Below are positions 6,888 through 58,788 of a stretch of 64,000 nt of DNA, piece by piece (positions within the stretch are counted from its first letter, which is position 1; every line of letters begins with the position of its first letter). Location of the stretch: assembly GCA_022799355.1 (NCBI GenBank), contig JAAWOG010000011.1:1-64000 (forward strand), written 5' to 3'. The notes below the pieces were generated by a model. The model was given only the letters and a program-made list of their open reading frames with translations, ran no database searches and was not told where the DNA came from. Source of the DNA: Lachnospiraceae bacterium. Lineage in GTDB: Bacteria > Bacillota > Clostridia > Lachnospirales > Lachnospiraceae. A program made the translations under genes and the position numbers.

Positions 6888-7063
6888 TTGTTTTTCCTCC
6901 TGAATATCTATGGGCTCCTGCCCACAATGCGGGATTCGCTCTGCGAACCCGAAACAATAGGTGATGAAAATTTCCCTTTGTATCTCTGTGCAATCGAGTC
7001 TCCACGCGCAGTGCGCATCCTCGCGGAGCGTTTTTATTTCATAAGACGCAATTTCCTATGAAA

Positions 7064-7091
7064 TAAAAAAACCGCTTCGACAATGAAGCGG
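7064..7091 (-). terminator. Riboswitch-controlled intrinsic terminator upstream of metK
   Basis: On the minus strand CCGCTTCATTGTCGAAGCGG (7072-7091) forms an 8-bp hairpin immediately followed by a seven-T tract. It lies about 25 nt after the SAM-I aptamer and 180 nt before the metK start, which is the expected position of the regulated terminator. Between here and the metK start a second hairpin, TTTCATA paired with TATGAAA, is also visible. Confidence 0.88.
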
Positions 7092-7114
7092 ACTCGGGTT
7101 AACTACCTCAAATC

Positions 7115-7216
7115 CTCTTATTGTTCGATCGTTCATTCGCTCAGGTTGGCACCTTCCGTTTAAGGGGTTGCCGTGGCTTCGCAGGTCCTATGTACCTCCA
7201 CCACTCTGAATAAGAG
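7115..7216 (-). promoter_or_regulatory. SAM-I (S-box) riboswitch aptamer
   Basis: Read on the minus strand, P1 is formed by CTCTTATT pairing with AATAAGAG (7209-7216 with 7115-7122). The interior shows the S-box hallmarks: AGAGTGGTGGAGG after P1, GCCACGGCAACC, then GGTGCCAACCTG, then GAGCGAATGAACGATCGAA. The order, spacing and P1 closure match the SAM-I class, which binds S-adenosylmethionine and promotes transcription termination. It precedes metK on the same strand, the canonical target. The rest of the 549-nt leader (6888-7436) holds the terminator, a hairpin and no gene. Confidence 0.95.
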
Positions 7217-20286: not shown

Positions 20287-21162
20287 CTAATCCTCCTTTC
20301 CAAGTTTCACCTGTAAAAATGACATGATCATGGCAATGATCAGGATCGAGACGCCGATTGCCGCGGCTTCCCCCGCCTTAAAATCCTTGAATGCCTTCTC
20401 ATACAGGTAGACGTTCATCACCGTGGAAGAACGTCCCGGTCCGCCGTTTGTGAGCAGTTTCACAATATCAAATGTTTTCAGGGAACCCACAATACCTAAA
20501 ATAATCAGCACATTGGTGGTTCCTTTTACCATGGGAAAGGTGACGGATGTTAGCGTCCTCCAGAATCCCGCCCCGTCGATCTTTGCCGCCTCGTACACAT
20601 CATCAGGCTGGCTCATCAGGCTGGCGTAATAGGTGATCATGGAAAACCCCATCCACTGAAAAATATTGACGATGATAACCGAAAGGAGCGCATATCTTTT
20701 ATCCCCCAGCCAGCTCACGGCAAACATGTCGAGATGCACCGCATGCAGGAACTGATTCAGCGCGCCGTTTGTAGGATCCATGATAATGCGGAAGATCGCG
20801 GTGATAATAGATGTGGCCATAGCGATCGGCATAAAATAGACCGCCTTGAACATATTGGAACCCGGCAGTTTTTTCTTAAGCAAAACAGCCAGAAAAAAAC
20901 CCACCGCCGCCTGCACAAAGACCGTGCCGAAGAAAAAAATGACATTGTTGGTGACCGCCTGCCAGAACGTGGCATCTTTAAATAGTTTAATATAATTTTT
21001 TAATCCCACAAAGTTCATTTCCGGCGACATGCCGTTCCAGTCGGTAAAACTTGTCATCACGGTCCGTATAATGCAGTAATATACGACCGCAAACGACAGA
21101 AGCATAAGTGGCAGTATATAAAGATATGCCGCCCAGTTGTTTTTCTTACCCAGTTTCTTCAT
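20287..21162 (-). CDS. Sugar ABC importer permease, MalF type
   Basis: The first permease of the CUT1 importer, about 291 residues from the start at 21162 (MKKLGKKNNWAAYLY) with GGAGG 7 nt upstream. Six membrane helices are predicted and the EAA loop reads YEAAKIDGAGFWRTLTSVTFP. A longer in-frame opening to 21207 would translate through a conserved CGGAACTG element and is rejected. It is the first gene after the response regulator, separated by a 316-nt gap filled by repeat elements that end directly against its ribosome binding site. Confidence 0.93.
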   Translation of the reverse strand: MKKLGKKNNWAAYLYILPLMLLSFAVVYYCIIRTVMTSFTDWNGMSPEMNFVGLKNYIKLFKDATFWQAVTNNVIFFFGTVFVQAAVGFFLAVLLKKKLPGSNMFKAVYFMPIAMATSIITAIFRIIMDPTNGALNQFLHAVHLDMFAVSWLGDKRYALLSVIIVNIFQWMGFSMITYYASLMSQPDDVYEAAKIDGAGFWRTLTSVTFPMVKGTTNVLIILGIVGSLKTFDIVKLLTNGGPGRSSTVMNVYLYEKAFKDFKAGEAAAIGVSILIIAMIMSFLQVKLGKED

Positions 21163-21178
21163 TACCTTTCCTCCATTC

Positions 21179-21278
21179 CAGTTCCGTAACTGCCCTTCAG
21201 ATACCATTCTGCGGCAGAGAAAATCCCGTCTGTTTTACAGCCGGTATTTCCTCTGGGGCATCTTTCGGGCAGTTACTG
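21179..21278 (-). repeat. CGGAACTG stem-loop element, copy A
   Basis: About 100 bp. Read on the minus strand: CAG, then arm TAACTGCCC (21267-21275), about 70 nt, then arm GGGCAGTTA (21187-21195), then CGGAA and CTG. CAG pairs with the final CTG, leaving CGGAA as a bulge. An inner stem pairs CAGAGGAAATACCG with CGGGATTTTCTCTG (12 of 14 positions). The element ends 6 nt before the GGAGG of the permease gene. Confidence 0.75.
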
Positions 21279-21283
21279 TTTTT

Positions 21284-21384
21284 CAGTTCCGCATCAGCCC
21301 TTCCAATACTCTTTATATGGCAGAGAAAATGCTGTCTGCTACGCTGCCATCATTTCCTCCGGAGCATTGTACGGGCTGATGCTG
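21284..21384 (-). repeat. CGGAACTG stem-loop element, copy B
   Basis: Tandem to copy A with a five-A linker on the minus strand. Same plan with a different stem: CATCAGCCC (21373-21381) pairs with GGGCTGATG (21292-21300), again followed by CGGAA and CTG. An inner stem with GGAGGAAATG and CATTTTCTCTG is retained. Confidence 0.75.
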
Positions 21385-21389
21385 TTTTC

Positions 21390-21413
21390 CAGTTCCGTAG
21401 CTGCCCGCAACTG
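21390..21413 (-). repeat. CGGAACTG element remnant
   Basis: Only the closing part survives: CAGTTGC, GGGCAGCTA and CGGAACTG in 24 bp. Its arm sequence differs from those of copies A and B. The rest of the gap to the yesN stop at 21479 is AT-rich and holds nothing that I can name. Confidence 0.55.
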
Positions 21414-21478
21414 TATTTTCTAAAATAATCATAAAATAATTTATATAGAAGAAAGATAATAAAATTTTGAGAAATACT

Positions 21479-23026
21479 CTAAATTTTTGCCGCGAATTCA
21501 CCGGGCTTCATGCCGGTGATCTCTTTAAAGACCTTGAAGAAATAATTGTAATTGCGAAAGCCCGAGTTCTCCACAACTTCCTTCATTGACAACTCTCCTC
21601 GGATCAGCAGGCTCTTTGCCCTGCTGATACGCCGTCTGTTTAAATATTCCACAAACCGCATCCCTGTCTCCTGCTTAAAGGCACGGCTCACATGGGTATA
21701 GCTGACGCCGAGCTCTAATGCACACATCTCCAGAGAAATATCCTCCTGATAGTTCTTTCCCACAAATTCCATCACCTGATTGATCAGCGGAGAATACCGG
21801 TATTTTTTCTTTTCCTCCAAAATCCTCTCACGGTTCATAAACTCCATAATGTCCTCACGCAGCAGCTCAAAGATCTCATATCCTTTCACCCGCTCCGTCA
21901 GTTTTTTACATTCAGCCATCTCCCCCGGGCACAGCAGCCGCATCATCTCCAGAGAATACTCCAGCACTTTTTTCTGCGGCAGCCTCTCTTTTTCCATAAA
22001 GTCAAAAAACTCATTCAACGTAGGCATCTCCGCCGCGCCCTGCTCCCTTTTTTCAAAGGCCATCTGTTTCCACAGCGCCGACGGAATCTCTCCCGTTCCG
22101 TATACCATCTTTCTGGCAAGAGGCAGAGAAATCAGCCTGTTTCCGCCCAGATACAGCTTGTCCTCCAGAATATCATCCATCTCCTCAGACTCCGAAAGAG
22201 CCTTCTCCAACTGCGTATGTACGATCCCTATCGCAATGGTCGATGTCAGATCCAGTATCCTGATAATCTGCTTCTGTAACCTTGTGGCCAGCTTTTTCAT
22301 GATATTCATCATATAGAGCGTACTGTTGACTTCCTGAAAACACAGCAGCACCAGCAGATGAAATTTTTTGGTCTGACAGATGATAAACGGATACTCCGTT
22401 CCCAGTATCTGTGCCAGAATGTCCATGATCGTACTGCATACATCCCGCCGAAATTCCTCCGGATTGATCCGCTCCGAAAACCGGTAATCCGGCGAGATCG
22501 CAAGAGACGCATAGTTGCCGCCTCCGAACTGTATCTTCTGTTCCCGGATCATCCTCTCTATGCCATCCCTTGTGTATTCCTCTCTGTCATAGATACAATA
22601 TCCGGTCCGCCTGCATGCCGCTTTTTCCGCCGGTACAATATGATATTTCTCCCGTACCTGTTCCAAAACCTGCAGGAGGCTTTCCTCCGTCAGTTCATGT
22701 TTCAGCAGATAATTTGCCGCCCCGTTCACGAGGCTCCCCCGCACATAGTCAAAGTTGTCGAAGCCGCTGATCACAATGACCGGCAGATACTCGTGGATAA
22801 CATGGATAATGCGCAGAAGGTCCACACCGTTCATCTCCGGCATCTGCATATCACAGAGCAAAATGTCTATTTCATTATACCGGAGCCAGTCCACCGCCGA
22901 TTTCCCGTCCGAGAAATCAGCCGCTACCTCATACCGTGTATTGTTCTGTATTAGTTTTTTGATCATATTCCTGCTGATCAGTTCATCGTCTATGATTGCC
23001 AGCTTAATCTTTTCCATCCCTCTCAC
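21479..23026 (-). CDS. AraC-type response regulator (YesN-like)
   Basis: A 515-residue cytoplasmic regulator. The receiver domain (residues 5-125) has the acidic pair in IIDDELISRN and the phosphoacceptor aspartate in ILLCDMQMPEMNG. A long middle region of about 280 residues resembles the linker found in YesN proteins. The C-terminal AraC domain (about 410-515) has two helix-turn-helix units: ISLEMCALELGVSYTHVSRAF and MKEVVENSGFRNYNYFFKVFK. The start is either GTG at 23026 or ATG at 23017; both overlap or abut the kinase stop, showing coupling. It probably activates the adjacent importer and GH43 genes in response to extracellular sugar sensed by the kinase. Confidence 0.92.
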   Translation of the reverse strand: MRGMEKIKLAIIDDELISRNMIKKLIQNNTRYEVAADFSDGKSAVDWLRYNEIDILLCDMQMPEMNGVDLLRIIHVIHEYLPVIVISGFDNFDYVRGSLVNGAANYLLKHELTEESLLQVLEQVREKYHIVPAEKAACRRTGYCIYDREEYTRDGIERMIREQKIQFGGGNYASLAISPDYRFSERINPEEFRRDVCSTIMDILAQILGTEYPFIICQTKKFHLLVLLCFQEVNSTLYMMNIMKKLATRLQKQIIRILDLTSTIAIGIVHTQLEKALSESEEMDDILEDKLYLGGNRLISLPLARKMVYGTGEIPSALWKQMAFEKREQGAAEMPTLNEFFDFMEKERLPQKKVLEYSLEMMRLLCPGEMAECKKLTERVKGYEIFELLREDIMEFMNRERILEEKKKYRYSPLINQVMEFVGKNYQEDISLEMCALELGVSYTHVSRAFKQETGMRFVEYLNRRRISRAKSLLIRGELSMKEVVENSGFRNYNYFFKVFKEITGMKPGEFAAKI

Positions 23027-34852: not shown

Positions 34853-34882
34853 ATGATCTCCTATTCCGGTTCCGCGTTCCTG

Positions 34883-53764: not shown

Positions 53765-56293
53765 TTATCTCTTATACGCCACAGCCCCCTCATATCGATT
53801 CGAGCGCCATATGATATCCACCAGTCTGCTGATACACGCCTTCAGGTCCTCTTTCTTCAAAGTCCCTTCCGCCAGCTCCTTCTCCAGATTCTCCCTGTCG
53901 CAGACTGCCCCGGGCATCACCAGATCATTTCCCGCACGCATACAGCCGGAAGCCGTGCAGTCCTCTCCCTGCTCGGTCGTTGTCCAGTCCGTCATGATCA
54001 TTCCCGCAAATCCCCACTCCGAACGGATCACATCCGTACAGATATCATGGTGATTTGCCACATGCACGCCGTTCAGCAGATTATAACTGGTCATAATGGA
54101 CATGGGCTGTGATTCCTTTACCGCGATCTCGAACCCTTTCAGATAAATCTCGCGCAGCGCCCGCTCGGAAACGATGCTGTCCGAACCCATCCTGTTGTCC
54201 TCCTGGTTATTGCAGGTAAGATGCTTGATCGTAGTACCACAGCCCGGCACGGACTGTACGCCGTCTGTCACAGCCGCCGCCATTTTTCCCGAGAGCAGCG
54301 GATCTTCCGCGTAATACTCAAAATTTCTGCCGCACAGAGGATTCCTGTGGATGTTCATGCCCGGCGCCAGCCAAAGCGTAACCCCGAACTCTTCCATCTC
54401 TCCGCCGACCATCCGCCCGATCCTGCGGAGCAGACCGCAGTCCCAGCTCTGGGCAAGCAGCGTTCCCACCGGCATCGCCGTACAGTACTGATAATATCGT
54501 TCCCCGGGTTCCTCCTCCATATCCCCACAGAATATACCGCCTTCCAGGGCAAAAGAAGAAGGCTTCGGCAGAATCTTTCCATTCTCCACATTGTAATGCT
54601 TCATCAGCCTGAGTCCTGCCGGTCCGTCCGCAAGCACAATGGGAGCCAGCCCTTTATCCAGGGCACAGCCGCTTGTCTCCCCCGCGGAACCGGGCACGGA
54701 TATACCTGCCGCCCCCAGATTTCCTCCCTCGCCCTGCTCTCTCTCCATTGTATCTCCGCCGGCAAGGGCGATCAACTGTTCCGTAGTCAGGGTATCCACA
54801 AACGCCGCCGCTTCCTCTGTAGTAAAATCCTTATTTTCCCGATAAATAATCTCCTTTTCGACAATATTCGGACATATTTCCAAAACCGGCAGCCCCTTTT
54901 CGCGCACAACCCCGGCAAGTTTTTCAAGCTTTCCCCGCATCCTCCCCGCAGGCTGCTTTAACTCAGCCAGTTCCTTCCGAAGTGGCGCAATATGTTTTGT
55001 TCTTATCAAAACAATATCCTCAGACAGCACTGCGACAGATACCGGAACAGCCGATGACAGGGAATTTCCAAGCCAGAACGTATACTCTCCCTCCTCCAGC
55101 ATCCAACCGGGTAATTCTTCACAATAGGAAGAAAGCCTCTCCAAGGGAATCTCCATCTCAATTTCCTGACTTTCCCCCGGCGCGAGCAGATCTGACTTTT
55201 CAAAGCCTGCCAACCTCCGGTACTCCTTCTCCATCTTCCCTGCGGGCGGCGTGACATAAAGCTCCGCCACTTCCCGTCCGCCGTAAACCTCTCCCGTATT
55301 GGTTACTTTTACGACAAAGCGTAAACTTTTCTTTTCATCCTCCCACTTCACAGACACAAAATCCATACGAAAATCCGTATAGGATAAACCGAAGCCAAAG
55401 CCATACCTCACCGACACATCAAACGTATCAAAATATCGGTAACCGACATAGATCCCCTCCTGATAAAACTCCTGTTCCACATCTCCGTTATTGCCGGAAA
55501 ATGTGGCACTATTCGGGTAATCTTCATATTGACGGGCCCAGCTCCCGGTGAGTTTTCCGGAAGGCGGCACCGCACCGCCAACCACATCCGCAAAAGCATT
55601 TCCGCCCTCCATACCGGGCTGTACAATATAGAGCAATGCCTCAATATTCGGGTGCTCATCCAGAAAAGAGAGGTCAACCGGACCTCCGGTATTAATCACA
55701 ACTGCCACATGGGCATAATTTGCGCAGATATCGGATAACTGCCGCATCTCTTCCCCCGTCAGCCTGTAATCACCCTCGCCGCTGCTTCTGTCTTTCCCTT
55801 CTCCCGCCACACGGCTCAGGATATAAAAAGCAACTTCCGCTTCCGTCTTATCTACCGGTCCCCCGGCAGGCATCATAAATGGAGTTGTACTGTAGATCTG
55901 AAAAAATTCCGGCATTCCCTCCATGGACGCCGCTCTCTCCAGAATATCATCCCTCCATGCGCCTCTCGCCTCTCTATAACAGTTATCAAAATCCCTGATC
56001 CAATTCTCATTGGTGATCTGAAAGCCTGCATTTTTCATCCCCTGATAGATACTGACGCTCTCCCGCTCATTGACATCCCCGGAACCTGTGCCGCCTTTTA
56101 TTGTTTTAGATGCGCCCACGCCGTAAAGCGCCACCTTTGTCCCTTTTTTCAGAGGAAGCAGATGATTTTCATTTTTCAGCAGCACCATTCCCTCTGCTGC
56201 CGCCCTTCTTGCCAGCGCCCGGTTTTTTATCTCCCGCTCCGATATTTCAGGTGATCTTGTCCCTGTCAATTGTCTCTGTTTCATATTTCTCAT
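53765..56293 (-). CDS. Glycoside hydrolase family 3 beta-glucosidase, domain-permuted
   Basis: An 842-residue intracellular GH3 enzyme with domain order swapped relative to most members. The N-terminal part (about 20-290) is the usual C-terminal alpha/beta sandwich (AAAEGMVLLKNENHLLPL, GTGSGDVNE, VVINTGGPVDLSFLDEHPN, GYRYFDTFDVSVRYGFGFGLSYTDF). A fibronectin-like domain follows (about 300-410). The C-terminal part (about 490-842) is the TIM barrel with KHLTCNNQEDNRMGSD, SEWGFAGMIMTDW and nucleophile D769. The same permuted order is known from rumen Ruminococcus and Butyrivibrio beta-glucosidases. GGAG lies 11 nt upstream. A CGGAACTG element abuts the ribosome binding site. Confidence 0.9.
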   Translation of the reverse strand: MRNMKQRQLTGTRSPEISEREIKNRALARRAAAEGMVLLKNENHLLPLKKGTKVALYGVGASKTIKGGTGSGDVNERESVSIYQGMKNAGFQITNENWIRDFDNCYREARGAWRDDILERAASMEGMPEFFQIYSTTPFMMPAGGPVDKTEAEVAFYILSRVAGEGKDRSSGEGDYRLTGEEMRQLSDICANYAHVAVVINTGGPVDLSFLDEHPNIEALLYIVQPGMEGGNAFADVVGGAVPPSGKLTGSWARQYEDYPNSATFSGNNGDVEQEFYQEGIYVGYRYFDTFDVSVRYGFGFGLSYTDFRMDFVSVKWEDEKKSLRFVVKVTNTGEVYGGREVAELYVTPPAGKMEKEYRRLAGFEKSDLLAPGESQEIEMEIPLERLSSYCEELPGWMLEEGEYTFWLGNSLSSAVPVSVAVLSEDIVLIRTKHIAPLRKELAELKQPAGRMRGKLEKLAGVVREKGLPVLEICPNIVEKEIIYRENKDFTTEEAAAFVDTLTTEQLIALAGGDTMEREQGEGGNLGAAGISVPGSAGETSGCALDKGLAPIVLADGPAGLRLMKHYNVENGKILPKPSSFALEGGIFCGDMEEEPGERYYQYCTAMPVGTLLAQSWDCGLLRRIGRMVGGEMEEFGVTLWLAPGMNIHRNPLCGRNFEYYAEDPLLSGKMAAAVTDGVQSVPGCGTTIKHLTCNNQEDNRMGSDSIVSERALREIYLKGFEIAVKESQPMSIMTSYNLLNGVHVANHHDICTDVIRSEWGFAGMIMTDWTTTEQGEDCTASGCMRAGNDLVMPGAVCDRENLEKELAEGTLKKEDLKACISRLVDIIWRSNRYEGAVAYKR

Positions 56294-56312
56294 TTCTAAA
56301 AAGTCTCCATTT

Positions 56313-56409
56313 CAGTTCCGCATGAGCCTCCACAGCACACATTACCGAGGAGAATTTCCAGCTGCATTTGCATCTGTAAATCCTCCTGTGCGCTTCTCGG
56401 CTCATGCTG
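56313..56409 (-). repeat. CGGAACTG stem-loop element, copy D
   Basis: Same plan as at 21.2 kb with a third stem: CATGAGCC (56399-56406 complement) pairs with GGCTCATG (56321-56328 complement), then CGGAA and CTG. An inner AGGAGGATTT/AAATTCTCCT stem is retained. It ends 5 nt before the GGAG of the GH3 gene. Confidence 0.75.
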
Positions 56410-56413
56410 TTTC

Positions 56414-56424
56414 CAGTTCCGCAT
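56414..56424 (-). repeat. CGGAACTG element remnant
   Basis: GATGCGGAACTG, separated from copy D by GAAA on the minus strand, lies 10 nt after the metH stop. It matches the closing end of the element, as at 21390-21413. Confidence 0.5.
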
Positions 56425-56433
56425 CTATTTATA

Positions 56434-58788
56434 TTATCCTAACACTTCCTTCGCGATATCCGCCGATGCTTTTGCATCTTTGGCATAATAATCCGCACCA
56501 ATCTCCATCGCATAGCTTTCCGTCAGCACCGCCCCTCCTACAAAAATCTTACAGGGGTGCCCGCTCTTTCTGAGTGCCTCTATCGTTTTCCGCATGGAAG
56601 AGACGGTCGTGGTCATCAGGGCGGAAAGTCCCACCAGAAAAACCCTCTCTCTTAAAACCGTCTCCACCACAGTATTTACCGGAACATCCCGCCCCAGATC
56701 AATCACCTGATAACCATAGTTCTCCAGCACCACCCGGACAATATTTTTTCCGATATCATGAATATCGCCTTCCACGGTCGCCATCACAATCTTTCCTTTG
56801 GAGAGATTCTCTCCGCCTCTGCCTGCTATTCTTGTCTTGATCAGATCAAAGCCTGCGCAGGCAGCATTTGCGGCATTGATAAGCTGAGGCAGGAAAATCT
56901 GCTGCTTCTCATACTTTTCCCCCACGATATCCAGAGCAGGAATCAGCTTTTGGTTGATCACATCCAACTCAGACATGGTTTCCAGATACTGCTCCGTCAG
57001 GTTTGCCACCTCCTGTTTCAGCCCTTTTAAAACCGCTTTTTCAATGCTCATCTCAGCGGGTGAGGCTGTAGCAGGCAGCGTCTTTTCCGAAACGGCTCCC
57101 GCAAACCGCTCAATATATGCCGCACAATCCATATCTTCGCCAAAGAGGGCGCGATGAGAAAAGACCATATCCATGATCTCTTTCTGATTGGGATTGACTA
57201 TCGGAAAATCCAGCCCGCAGCACATCGCCTGCATCAGAAAGCCCGCCGTGATATGAATCCGTTCCGGCAGTCCAAAGGAAATGTTGCTGACTCCAAGCAC
57301 GCAGTGCAGTCCCATCTTTTCATGAATATACCGTACCGCCTTAAGCGTCTCCTTCGCCTGACTTTGCTGTGCGGATATGGTCAGCGTCAGCGCATCTATC
57401 AGCACATCCTCACGGGCTATGCCATAACGCTCCGCCGCCGCTAAAATCCGCTCAGCAATTTCGATTCTTGCCTCCGCAGTTTCGGGAATGCCGCCTTTGT
57501 CCATCGTCAGTCCCACCACTGCCGCACCATATTTTTTCACAATGGGCAATACTTTTTCCAGTACCTCCTGCTCCCCGTTTACGGAATTCACGATAGCCCG
57601 TCCGTTACAGACGCGAAGCCCTGCTTCGATGGCTTCCGGATCGGAAGAGTCAATCTGCAACGGCAGTGTCACAACGCTCTGCACCGCTTTGACCACCCTT
57701 GTCATCATCTCCGCTTCCCGTATGCCGGGCAGTCCCACATTGATATCCAGAATATCGGCGCCCGCATCTGCCTGTTCGATGGCCCTCTCCATGATATAAT
57801 TCATGTCTCCGTCCCGCAGCGCCTGCTGAAATCTCTTCTTTCCCGTGGGATTGATCCGCTCCCCGATCACGCGAACCCCGCCGAACTGTGCCACCTGCCC
57901 TGCCGAACAGACTCCCCGGAACAATTTCCTCTCTTTCACATCTTCTGCTTCCGGCACCGCCTGGACACTCCCATTTGCCAGCGCCCTGATAAAATCCGGA
58001 TTCGTCCCACAGCAGCCGCCGAAAATGGACGCCCCGAGTTTCGGAAATTCCGCCATATGCCGTCCGAATTCCTCCGCCCCCATACTGTACTCCCCGGTGG
58101 CGGGATCAGGCATACCCGCATTGGGCTTTACGATAACAGGCAGATCCGTCCACCGCCTCAGTTCCTCCACCAGCGGCGCCAGTTCCTTCGGTCCCAGGGA
58201 ACAGTTGATCCCCAGCGCATCCACACCGAGTCCCGTCAGCGTCAGCGCCATAGCCGCCACCGTCGTCCCCGTAAAGGTTCTTCCGGAAGCCTCGAAACTC
58301 ATGGTTGTCCAGACGGGAAGGTCACTGTTTTCCTTCGCCGCAAGCACCGCCGCCCTTACCTCATACAAATCGGTCATCGTCTCAAATATAATAAGATCCA
58401 CACCGCAGGCGGCTCCCGCTCTCACAACCTGCGCATATATCTCATACGCCTTCTCAAAAGAGAGCATTCCGAGAGGTTCTAAGAGTTCTCCGATTGGGCC
58501 CACATCCAGCGCCACCTTTGCCTTTCCTCCGGCAGCCCTTCTCGCCGTGGCGACATTCGCAGAAACAACTTCCTCCACCGTATAGCCGGTCCCCTCCAGT
58601 TTATGGGCGTTGGTACCAAAGGTATTGGCATACAGCACCTGGCTGCCCGCCTCCACATAACTGCGCTGAACACGCTCTACCACATCCGGGTGCTTTAATC
58701 CGAACAGATCAGGGCGCTCTCCCAGCCCAAGCCCCGCTGCCTGCAGCATGGTACCCATACCTCCGTCCAATATGATCCTATCTCTCAT
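56434..58788 (-). CDS. metH: Cobalamin-dependent methionine synthase lacking the reactivation domain
   Basis: A 784-residue protein with three of the four MetH modules. The homocysteine-binding barrel (1-290) has zinc ligands C196 (GINCSLG) and C259/C260 (GGCCGTNP). The pterin-binding barrel (about 300-560) starts GERINPTGKKRFQQAL. The cobalamin cap and domain (about 580-784) have GDIHDIGKNIV with the cobalt-ligand H677. The C-terminal S-adenosylmethionine/reductase domain is missing and is encoded by the overlapping upstream gene. It remethylates homocysteine to methionine. AAGGGAG precedes the start. It overlaps the activation gene by 11 nt. Confidence 0.95.
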   Translation of the reverse strand: MRDRIILDGGMGTMLQAAGLGLGERPDLFGLKHPDVVERVQRSYVEAGSQVLYANTFGTNAHKLEGTGYTVEEVVSANVATARRAAGGKAKVALDVGPIGELLEPLGMLSFEKAYEIYAQVVRAGAACGVDLIIFETMTDLYEVRAAVLAAKENSDLPVWTTMSFEASGRTFTGTTVAAMALTLTGLGVDALGINCSLGPKELAPLVEELRRWTDLPVIVKPNAGMPDPATGEYSMGAEEFGRHMAEFPKLGASIFGGCCGTNPDFIRALANGSVQAVPEAEDVKERKLFRGVCSAGQVAQFGGVRVIGERINPTGKKRFQQALRDGDMNYIMERAIEQADAGADILDINVGLPGIREAEMMTRVVKAVQSVVTLPLQIDSSDPEAIEAGLRVCNGRAIVNSVNGEQEVLEKVLPIVKKYGAAVVGLTMDKGGIPETAEARIEIAERILAAAERYGIAREDVLIDALTLTISAQQSQAKETLKAVRYIHEKMGLHCVLGVSNISFGLPERIHITAGFLMQAMCCGLDFPIVNPNQKEIMDMVFSHRALFGEDMDCAAYIERFAGAVSEKTLPATASPAEMSIEKAVLKGLKQEVANLTEQYLETMSELDVINQKLIPALDIVGEKYEKQQIFLPQLINAANAACAGFDLIKTRIAGRGGENLSKGKIVMATVEGDIHDIGKNIVRVVLENYGYQVIDLGRDVPVNTVVETVLRERVFLVGLSALMTTTVSSMRKTIEALRKSGHPCKIFVGGAVLTESYAMEIGADYYAKDAKASADIAKEVLG

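Follow-up and report, generated by a model that had tools for sequence, protein, structure and literature searches.

The tandem repeats at positions 21179-21413 of the window, the whole stretch of 64,000 nucleotides analysed here, raise the question of what kind of element they represent and how they came to lie directly upstream of a gene. The answer that we consider probable is a non-autonomous mobile element of about 100 bp which inserts just 5' of Shine-Dalgarno (SD) sequences and, carried along in the transcript, forms a hairpin whose structure is under selection.

The region carries two tandem full copies and a remnant on the minus strand, each full copy extending over about 100 nt (Table 1). 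An earlier note had described these, together with a further copy and remnant at 56313-56424, and a covariance model recovered precisely three full copies from the window, with E-values of 4e-19 to 9e-17, these three belonging to the 15 copies that built the model. All window copies begin with CAG, end with CGGAACTG and form one long hairpin each, and the shared ends and the copy-specific, exactly complementary arms claimed in that note are all present. Copies c2 and c1 are joined by AAAAA, and the remnant is joined to c2 by GAAAA. When folded as minus-strand RNA, the three full copies gave z-scores of -8.0, -6.2 and -6.7 and energies of -45.6 to -47.6 kcal/mol, and folding of the plus strand was weaker by about 10 kcal/mol. 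The motif CAGTTCCG has 9 occurrences in the window, where 1.6 would be expected; a loose pattern search for CAG near CAGTTCCG yielded mostly unrelated matches. The second remnant, at 56414-56424, sits just past a gene resembling methionine synthase (56434-58788).

Table 1. Element copies, remnants and adjoining features in the window (SD, Shine-Dalgarno sequence; P1, outer stem).
Feature	Positions	Strand	Motifs	Basis or remark
Full copy c1, 100 nt	21179-21278	minus	P1 arms TAACTGCCC/GGGCAGTTA; 3' tail CGGAACTG at 21186-21179	Sequence, fold, covariance-model match
Linker and SD	21178-21175; 21174-21170	minus	GAAT; GGAGG	Abuts c1 tail; pattern common to other copies
Gene 3' of c1, sugar ABC transporter permease-like	20287-21162	minus	Start ATG 21162-21160	Open reading frame; putative identity
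Full copy c2, 101 nt	21284-21384	minus	P1 arms CATCAGCCC/GGGCTGATG	
5'-truncated remnant (stub)	21390-21413	minus	GGGCAGCTA-CGGAACTG	Covariance model, 13 bits
Full copy c3, 97 nt	56313-56409	minus	P1 arms CATGAGCC/GGCTCATG	
Region downstream of c3	56291-56312	minus	AAAT linker; SD GGAG 56308-56305; start ATG 56293-56291	
Gene 3' of c3, glycoside hydrolase family 3-like	53765-56293	minus		Putative name
Stub, tail of 5'-truncated copy	56414-56424	minus	CGGAACTGGAAA	Upstream of c3
Solo scar without hairpin	34861-34874	minus	CGGAACCGGAATAG, then GAGATCATATG	Start ATG 34852-34850

A BLAST search with the tandem revealed many dispersed relatives in the window genome, and the covariance model, whose 15 copies all derive from that genome, found 57 copies at E <= 0.01 in its 3.79 Mb. 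Copies are 97-107 nt long, too short to hold a transposase. Six of eight congeners carry 12-67 copies and the other two, which are drafts about 85% complete, have none; a genome of another genus, G021, gave 105 matches. Within the family the element was present in six of 298 genera, sampled at about one genome per genus, and the carriers, from mouse gut, represent at least six genera of Lachnospiraceae and include Acetatifactor muris. At least 117 stretches from named genomes contain a 20-nt signature, among them one from Acetatifactor muris DSM 23669, and all of the stretches inspected belong to Lachnospiraceae or gut clostridia or bacteria. Plasmid and phage collections gave no DNA match at blastn sensitivity with an array of three near-identical copies as query, and on this basis a plasmid- or phage-borne origin was rejected.

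The earlier note had not recognised the element as a named RNA family, and the Rfam comparison agreed: there was no gathering match at the window element, with only chance-level matches at 21000-21500, and nothing at E <= 0.5 at four further loci. The window's sole gathering match to Rfam lies elsewhere, at 7115-7216 on the minus strand, and is a SAM riboswitch (RF00162, 74 bits). No known repeat was matched in the Rfam, plasmid and phage searches. A literature search for the literal sequences CGGAACTG and CAGTTCCG found no match, although the element may figure as an unnamed entry in the tables of microbiome RNA surveys such as PMC8040213.

A subtype of the element, 102-103 nt long and with another inner stem (GGGAGAAAATTGAAGCTG...CAGATTCAAATTTGCTCCC) occurs at L104 (6652-7081), L089, L101, L160 and L196, once as four near-identical tandem copies 5' of a Nif3/YqfO-like gene. 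There is also a second repeat module, ACCGAGCTGAAAGCGAGGGATACGARCAAAAAGCGRAGCGTTTGYGAGT, which separates GAATAG from the SD or one element tail from another; it was seen at L341 (window genome, C32, about 6960-7170, plus strand), L145, L164, L192 and L196. In C32 this module forms three tandem 72-nt units with CGGAACYGGAATAG, and tail-less variants of it lie directly past stop codons in C102, C79, C18 and at C32:335.

The placement of the element is highly regular. It was evaluated at 160 places in genomes that had been searched by structure, context not being used in the search. At 152 of these the 45 nt on the 3' side include a start codon that opens a reading frame, usually after 13-19 nt, and at 123 an SD starts 4-5 nt past CGGAACTG, the commonest linker and SD being GAAT-AGGAGG; outward from the opposite end, an SD and start were found at none of the 160. 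Copies from four further genera show the same SD arrangement. The copies are intergenic, whereas placement inside coding sequence had been named in the earlier note as an observation that would refute its reading. The downstream genes in the window genome, as named from their sequences, include transketolase and pyrB-, purC-, nusA-, infB-, clpX-, era-, gatB-, dnaG- and secD-like genes, together with PTS and ABC transporters, glycosidases and others, and their apparent functions are unrelated. As the SD preference is known from surviving copies, targeting is inseparable from selection against other insertions.

Two functional candidates were rejected. A pathway-specific riboswitch or leader does not fit housekeeping, transport and metabolic genes which share no pathway, and a switch acting by SD occlusion does not fit a predicted SD unpaired probability that is essentially unchanged by the element (0.62 with it and 0.59 without).

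Maintenance of the fold is evident from covariation, which was tested statistically. Among 71 distinct copies the 34 pairs of the fold, distributed over P1, P2 and P3/P4, have 95.0% of their cells paired, and changes on both sides occur at 31 of the 34 pairs. None of 500 shuffles attained any of five covariation measures, and in a control where the partners were slid pairing fell to 30-45%. Positions in P1 show two to four Watson-Crick types each with pairing retained, so that complementarity persists across many genomic copies; with close variants included, nearly all of 205 copies have CAG and CGGAACTG at their ends. Compensatory changes also distinguish orthologous copies: at purine nucleoside phosphorylase-like orthologues G005 carries TAAGTGTCC/GGACACTTA and G002 TAAGTGCCC/GGGCACTTA, and at infB the P2 stem reads either GGTATC/GATACC or GGCATC/GATGCC.

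The strand on which the structure is maintained had been deduced in the earlier note from A-C mismatches on the plus strand that become U-G on the minus strand, which encodes the downstream genes, and the larger sample bears this out. In coding-strand reading the non-Watson-Crick cells of P1 comprise 46 G-U and 16 A-C; this excess is suggestive, the copies not being independent, and it is small when the window genome is taken by itself. In 196 of 199 copies RNA of the coding strand is more stable than that of the other strand; the mean difference is 7.35 kcal/mol compared with 3.95 in composition-matched shuffles, or 3.4 beyond composition. The structure is maintained, with a bias towards the RNA strand. 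Regarding details of the fold, an anti-SD within P3 was rejected because the P3 stem covaries freely, GGAGG/CCUCC being present in some copies and absent from most. Pairing of CAG with a CUG of the tail is likewise unsupported, the tail having CTG, CTA or CTT while CAG is constant.

These data bear on the possibility of a neutral repeat, the arms of which are kept perfect by quasi-palindrome correction, through template switching in replication, with no selection on RNA. Arms that are often perfect and differ between copies are what such correction would leave, and the tandem arrays and deletions are marks of slippage-prone DNA. We nevertheless find this explanation extremely improbable, given the coding-strand preponderance of G-U over A-C, the folding of that strand beyond what composition predicts, the covariation in internal helices and the compensatory changes at orthologous sites; moreover, it leaves dispersal to SDs unaccounted for.

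Comparison of equivalent sites provided evidence for mobility. At nusA the site is empty in G004, G005 and G008, where it reads TTTTAAATCAGGAGGAAAGATCA-ATG, with the boundary between TTTTAAATC and AGGAGG-ATG, and it is filled directly 5' of AGGAGG in the window genome, G002, G006 and G007, by elements with differing arms. Upstream of a VWA-domain-like gene G004 carries a single AGAGGTATTTA, whereas the filled site in G006 consists of AGAGGTATTTA-GT, the element (CAG...CGGAACTGGAAT) and a second AGAGGTATTTA, amounting to an 11-bp target duplication. The upstream gene ends within this 11-mer, which also contains the SD for the gene that follows. It is the one target duplication that has been checked against an empty site, and most places show none, possibly owing to decay of the unused copy. 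An exact 27-nt repeat holding the upstream gene end and the SD flanks a copy in G007, as judged from the filled site, and an imperfect repeat of about 27 nt flanks one copy in the window genome. Of 44 places whose left flank is clear of any old repeat, five have flank repeats scoring at least 10, against 0.57 expected with swapped flanks; of these five, two come from a single gene sampled in two species, and another probably reflects shared start-codon sequence.

In addition, copies 93-95% identical occur at unrelated loci within one genome. Hairpin-less scars of the form CGG(A/T)AC(T/C)GGAAT precede the SD of infB in G004 and G008 and are found solo at six places in the window genome, the scar at 34861-34874 of the window being of the same type, and mini-hairpins of 25-65 nt retain P1 and have lost the inside. 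At the VWA-like locus of the window genome (L098, C73 at about 12112) the stop codon of the upstream gene lies inside a mini-hairpin (CACGGCATCTGA), and therefore insertion supplies the end of that gene. Taken from sequence comparison, the empty sites, dispersed near-identical copies, scars and single verified target duplication make the element appear mobile. The structured RNA proposed in the earlier note is supported, but the note had not anticipated a dispersed element of high copy number in place of a local leader, the fixed SD distance or the marks of mobility. It would have counted a mobile repeat against its reading only where structure was not conserved, and 'structured RNA' and 'mobile repeat' both hold for this element.

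As to what moves it, a DNA-level hairpin transposable element of the REP or IS200-IS605 type, mobilised by an HUH (Y1) transposase acting on the single-stranded hairpin and with RNA irrelevant, is in our judgement very improbable. A hairpin with a short conserved foot tag, high copy number and intergenic position is certainly REP-like, and Y1 transposases are present in seven of ten carrier genomes tested besides the window genome. However, four carriers lack PF01797, namely the window genome (98% complete), G004, G021 and G312, and Y1/RAYT is therefore not the general mover; G021, without Y1, yet has about 100 element matches. The tag is CGGAACTG and not GTAG or CGTC, and the size differs from that of REPs (PMC3733652). 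The coding-strand excess of G-U over A-C is at odds with irrelevance of the RNA. Target duplications are, to our knowledge, not expected of IS200/IS605. Genome G005 has 13 Y1 transposase matches against none in the window genome, probably reflecting an IS200/IS605-type expansion unrelated to the element. Counting against the mobile reading itself, no mobilising enzyme, the one searched for being Y1 (PF01797), and no autonomous relative were found, and the duplication lengths, 11 and about 27, differ more widely than those that a DDE transposase normally leaves.

Orthologous genes are often filled in several species, yet the arms and inner stems of their elements are unrelated; insertion may have recurred, gene conversion may have replaced copies, or divergence may have been fast. 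Between species in which 74% of third positions in same-amino-acid codons agree, the element at a PduL-like gene keeps 95-96% identity, and this suggests a host function, or selection for the element, at least there. The conserved copy also favours the view that we are dealing with a host cis-regulatory or mRNA-processing element, useful to the genes that acquire it, which sets translation or stability of the downstream cistron, either because a global RNA-binding protein or ribonuclease recognises the hairpin or because 5'-to-3' decay is blocked. The constant SD distance and gene orientation, the strong RNA-level covariation and the conserved single-stranded tail accord with such a role. We think this explanation unlikely, since the targets are functionally incoherent, the element is present or absent at the same gene among close relatives with clean empty sites, two congeners (drafts about 85% complete) lack it, only six of the 298 sampled genera are positive and SD accessibility is predicted to be unchanged.

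Most copies are preceded upstream by the 3' end of another copy, truncated at its 5' side. For 78 of 80 such stubs the homology to the adjacent full copy ends 0-28 nt above the tail, the very short homologies being indistinguishable from chance, and for the remaining two it reaches 31 nt and 61 nt. Stubs share the arm sequence of the neighbouring copy, for example at L043, L081, L103 and L184. Random decay of full copies should spread stub lengths up to about 90 nt. The observed limit falls at the base of the inner hairpin, which fits a polymerase stopping there, and a deletion process acting on hairpins is also possible.

A bacterial analogue of a SINE would bring several of these features together. 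The hairpin would be transcribed with host mRNA, a reverse transcriptase working in trans would recognise its RNA 3' end CGGAACUGGAAU, and cDNA would be primed at nicks adjoining SDs, with end-to-end template jumping giving rise to tandem arrays and a 5'-truncated last copy. Such a process would explain why the copies share one orientation and have their 3' end fixed at the SD, and would account for the A-rich junctions, the variable target duplications, the selection on coding-strand RNA and the stubs that stop before the inner hairpin. We consider it distinctly unlikely all the same.

For the preferred reading, a mobile element landing at SDs, the following course is proposed. A unit of about CAG...CGGAACTGGAAT would insert in a single orientation immediately 5' of an SD, and insertion may duplicate target DNA that contains the SD, with the result that the upstream gene retains its end and the downstream ribosome-binding site stays functional at its usual distance from the start. 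The element would then be carried in mRNA, intergenically or in the 5' UTR, as a long stacked hairpin P1-P2-P3-P4, transcription being implied by its position between genes or 5' of SDs, and the tail GGAACUGGAAU would form an 11-nt link from the hairpin base to the SD. Local multiplication may produce the tandem arrays, and shrinkage the mini-hairpins or hairpin-less CGGAACTG scars. We infer a trans-acting factor that moves the element by recognising the hairpin base (CAG plus CGGAACUGGAAU). Landing at SDs would constitute a safe-haven strategy, insertion being tolerated, we suppose, because the duplicated SD preserves spacing and accessibility. Retention of the structure may serve recognition, either of the RNA or of that strand as single-stranded DNA, and may also be favoured because the structure leaves the SD unburied.

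If confirmed, this would be a case of a DNA parasite that persists in a compact genome by picking a harmless intergenic spot for target-copying insertion, and a mobile RNA would have reshaped the 5' mRNA context of dozens of genes per genome, some of them essential. The element would also constitute a new RNA family for annotation. Close relatives with empty and filled alleles of the same gene allow direct tests of what it does to translation, mRNA decay and operon uncoupling. We know of no other bacterial small repeat that occurs almost exclusively at ribosome-binding sites and has a covarying RNA fold.

Several families of small bacterial repeats invite comparison. The bcr elements (bcr1-bcr18) of Bacillus cereus often lie in UTRs or between operon genes, and some have a conserved secondary structure (PMC3446304). 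Like these, and like BOX and RUP of Streptococcus pneumoniae (PMC3049150), the element is small, multi-copy, intergenic, non-coding, hairpin-forming and patchily distributed, and it shares the character of a structured intergenic repeat with known stem-loop repeat families (PMC2267715). MITEs are defined by terminal inverted repeats (TIRs), a base-paired structure and target duplications (PMC3049150). In size and copy number, at 97-107 nt, about 57 copies and no coding capacity, the element conforms to this class, and its CAG...CTG ends with the P1 arms, leaving GGAA unpaired on the 3' side, correspond to TIRs; arms that covary, with no fixed TIR sequence, are atypical. Unlike MITEs, bcr, BOX and RUP, it is strictly oriented directly 5' of the SD, has duplicated SD-containing target DNA at the one site compared with an empty one, has stems that covary in nearly every copy and has no known parent transposon. 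One review of prokaryotic MITEs contains neither the term 'ribosome binding' nor the term 'upstream of the start'.

REPs are GTAG- or CGTC-tagged palindromes forming hairpins with a foot tag, compensatory stems and high copy number (PMC3733652). The element likewise has a hairpin with a short conserved tag at one foot, compensatory stems and many copies, but it is about 100 nt long against 20-40 nt for REPs, is tagged by CAG/CGGAACTG, lies upstream of SDs whereas REPs are mainly downstream of genes, and occurs in several carriers that lack RAYT/Y1. A parallel in placement is offered by the TAACTGA repeats of Beggiatoaceae, Cyanobacteria and Bacteroidetes, which, as described (PMC4679880), are heptamer direct repeats found patchily a few nucleotides upstream of the start codons of unrelated genes, canonical ribosome-binding sites being rare beside them. 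Our element resembles what is described there in its patchy distribution and its proximity to start codons of functionally unrelated genes, and differs from it in being a 100-nt covarying hairpin at which a canonical SD is nearly always kept. What is new here is the combination of strict SD placement with a covarying RNA structure, in an element that corresponds in part to the definition of a MITE.
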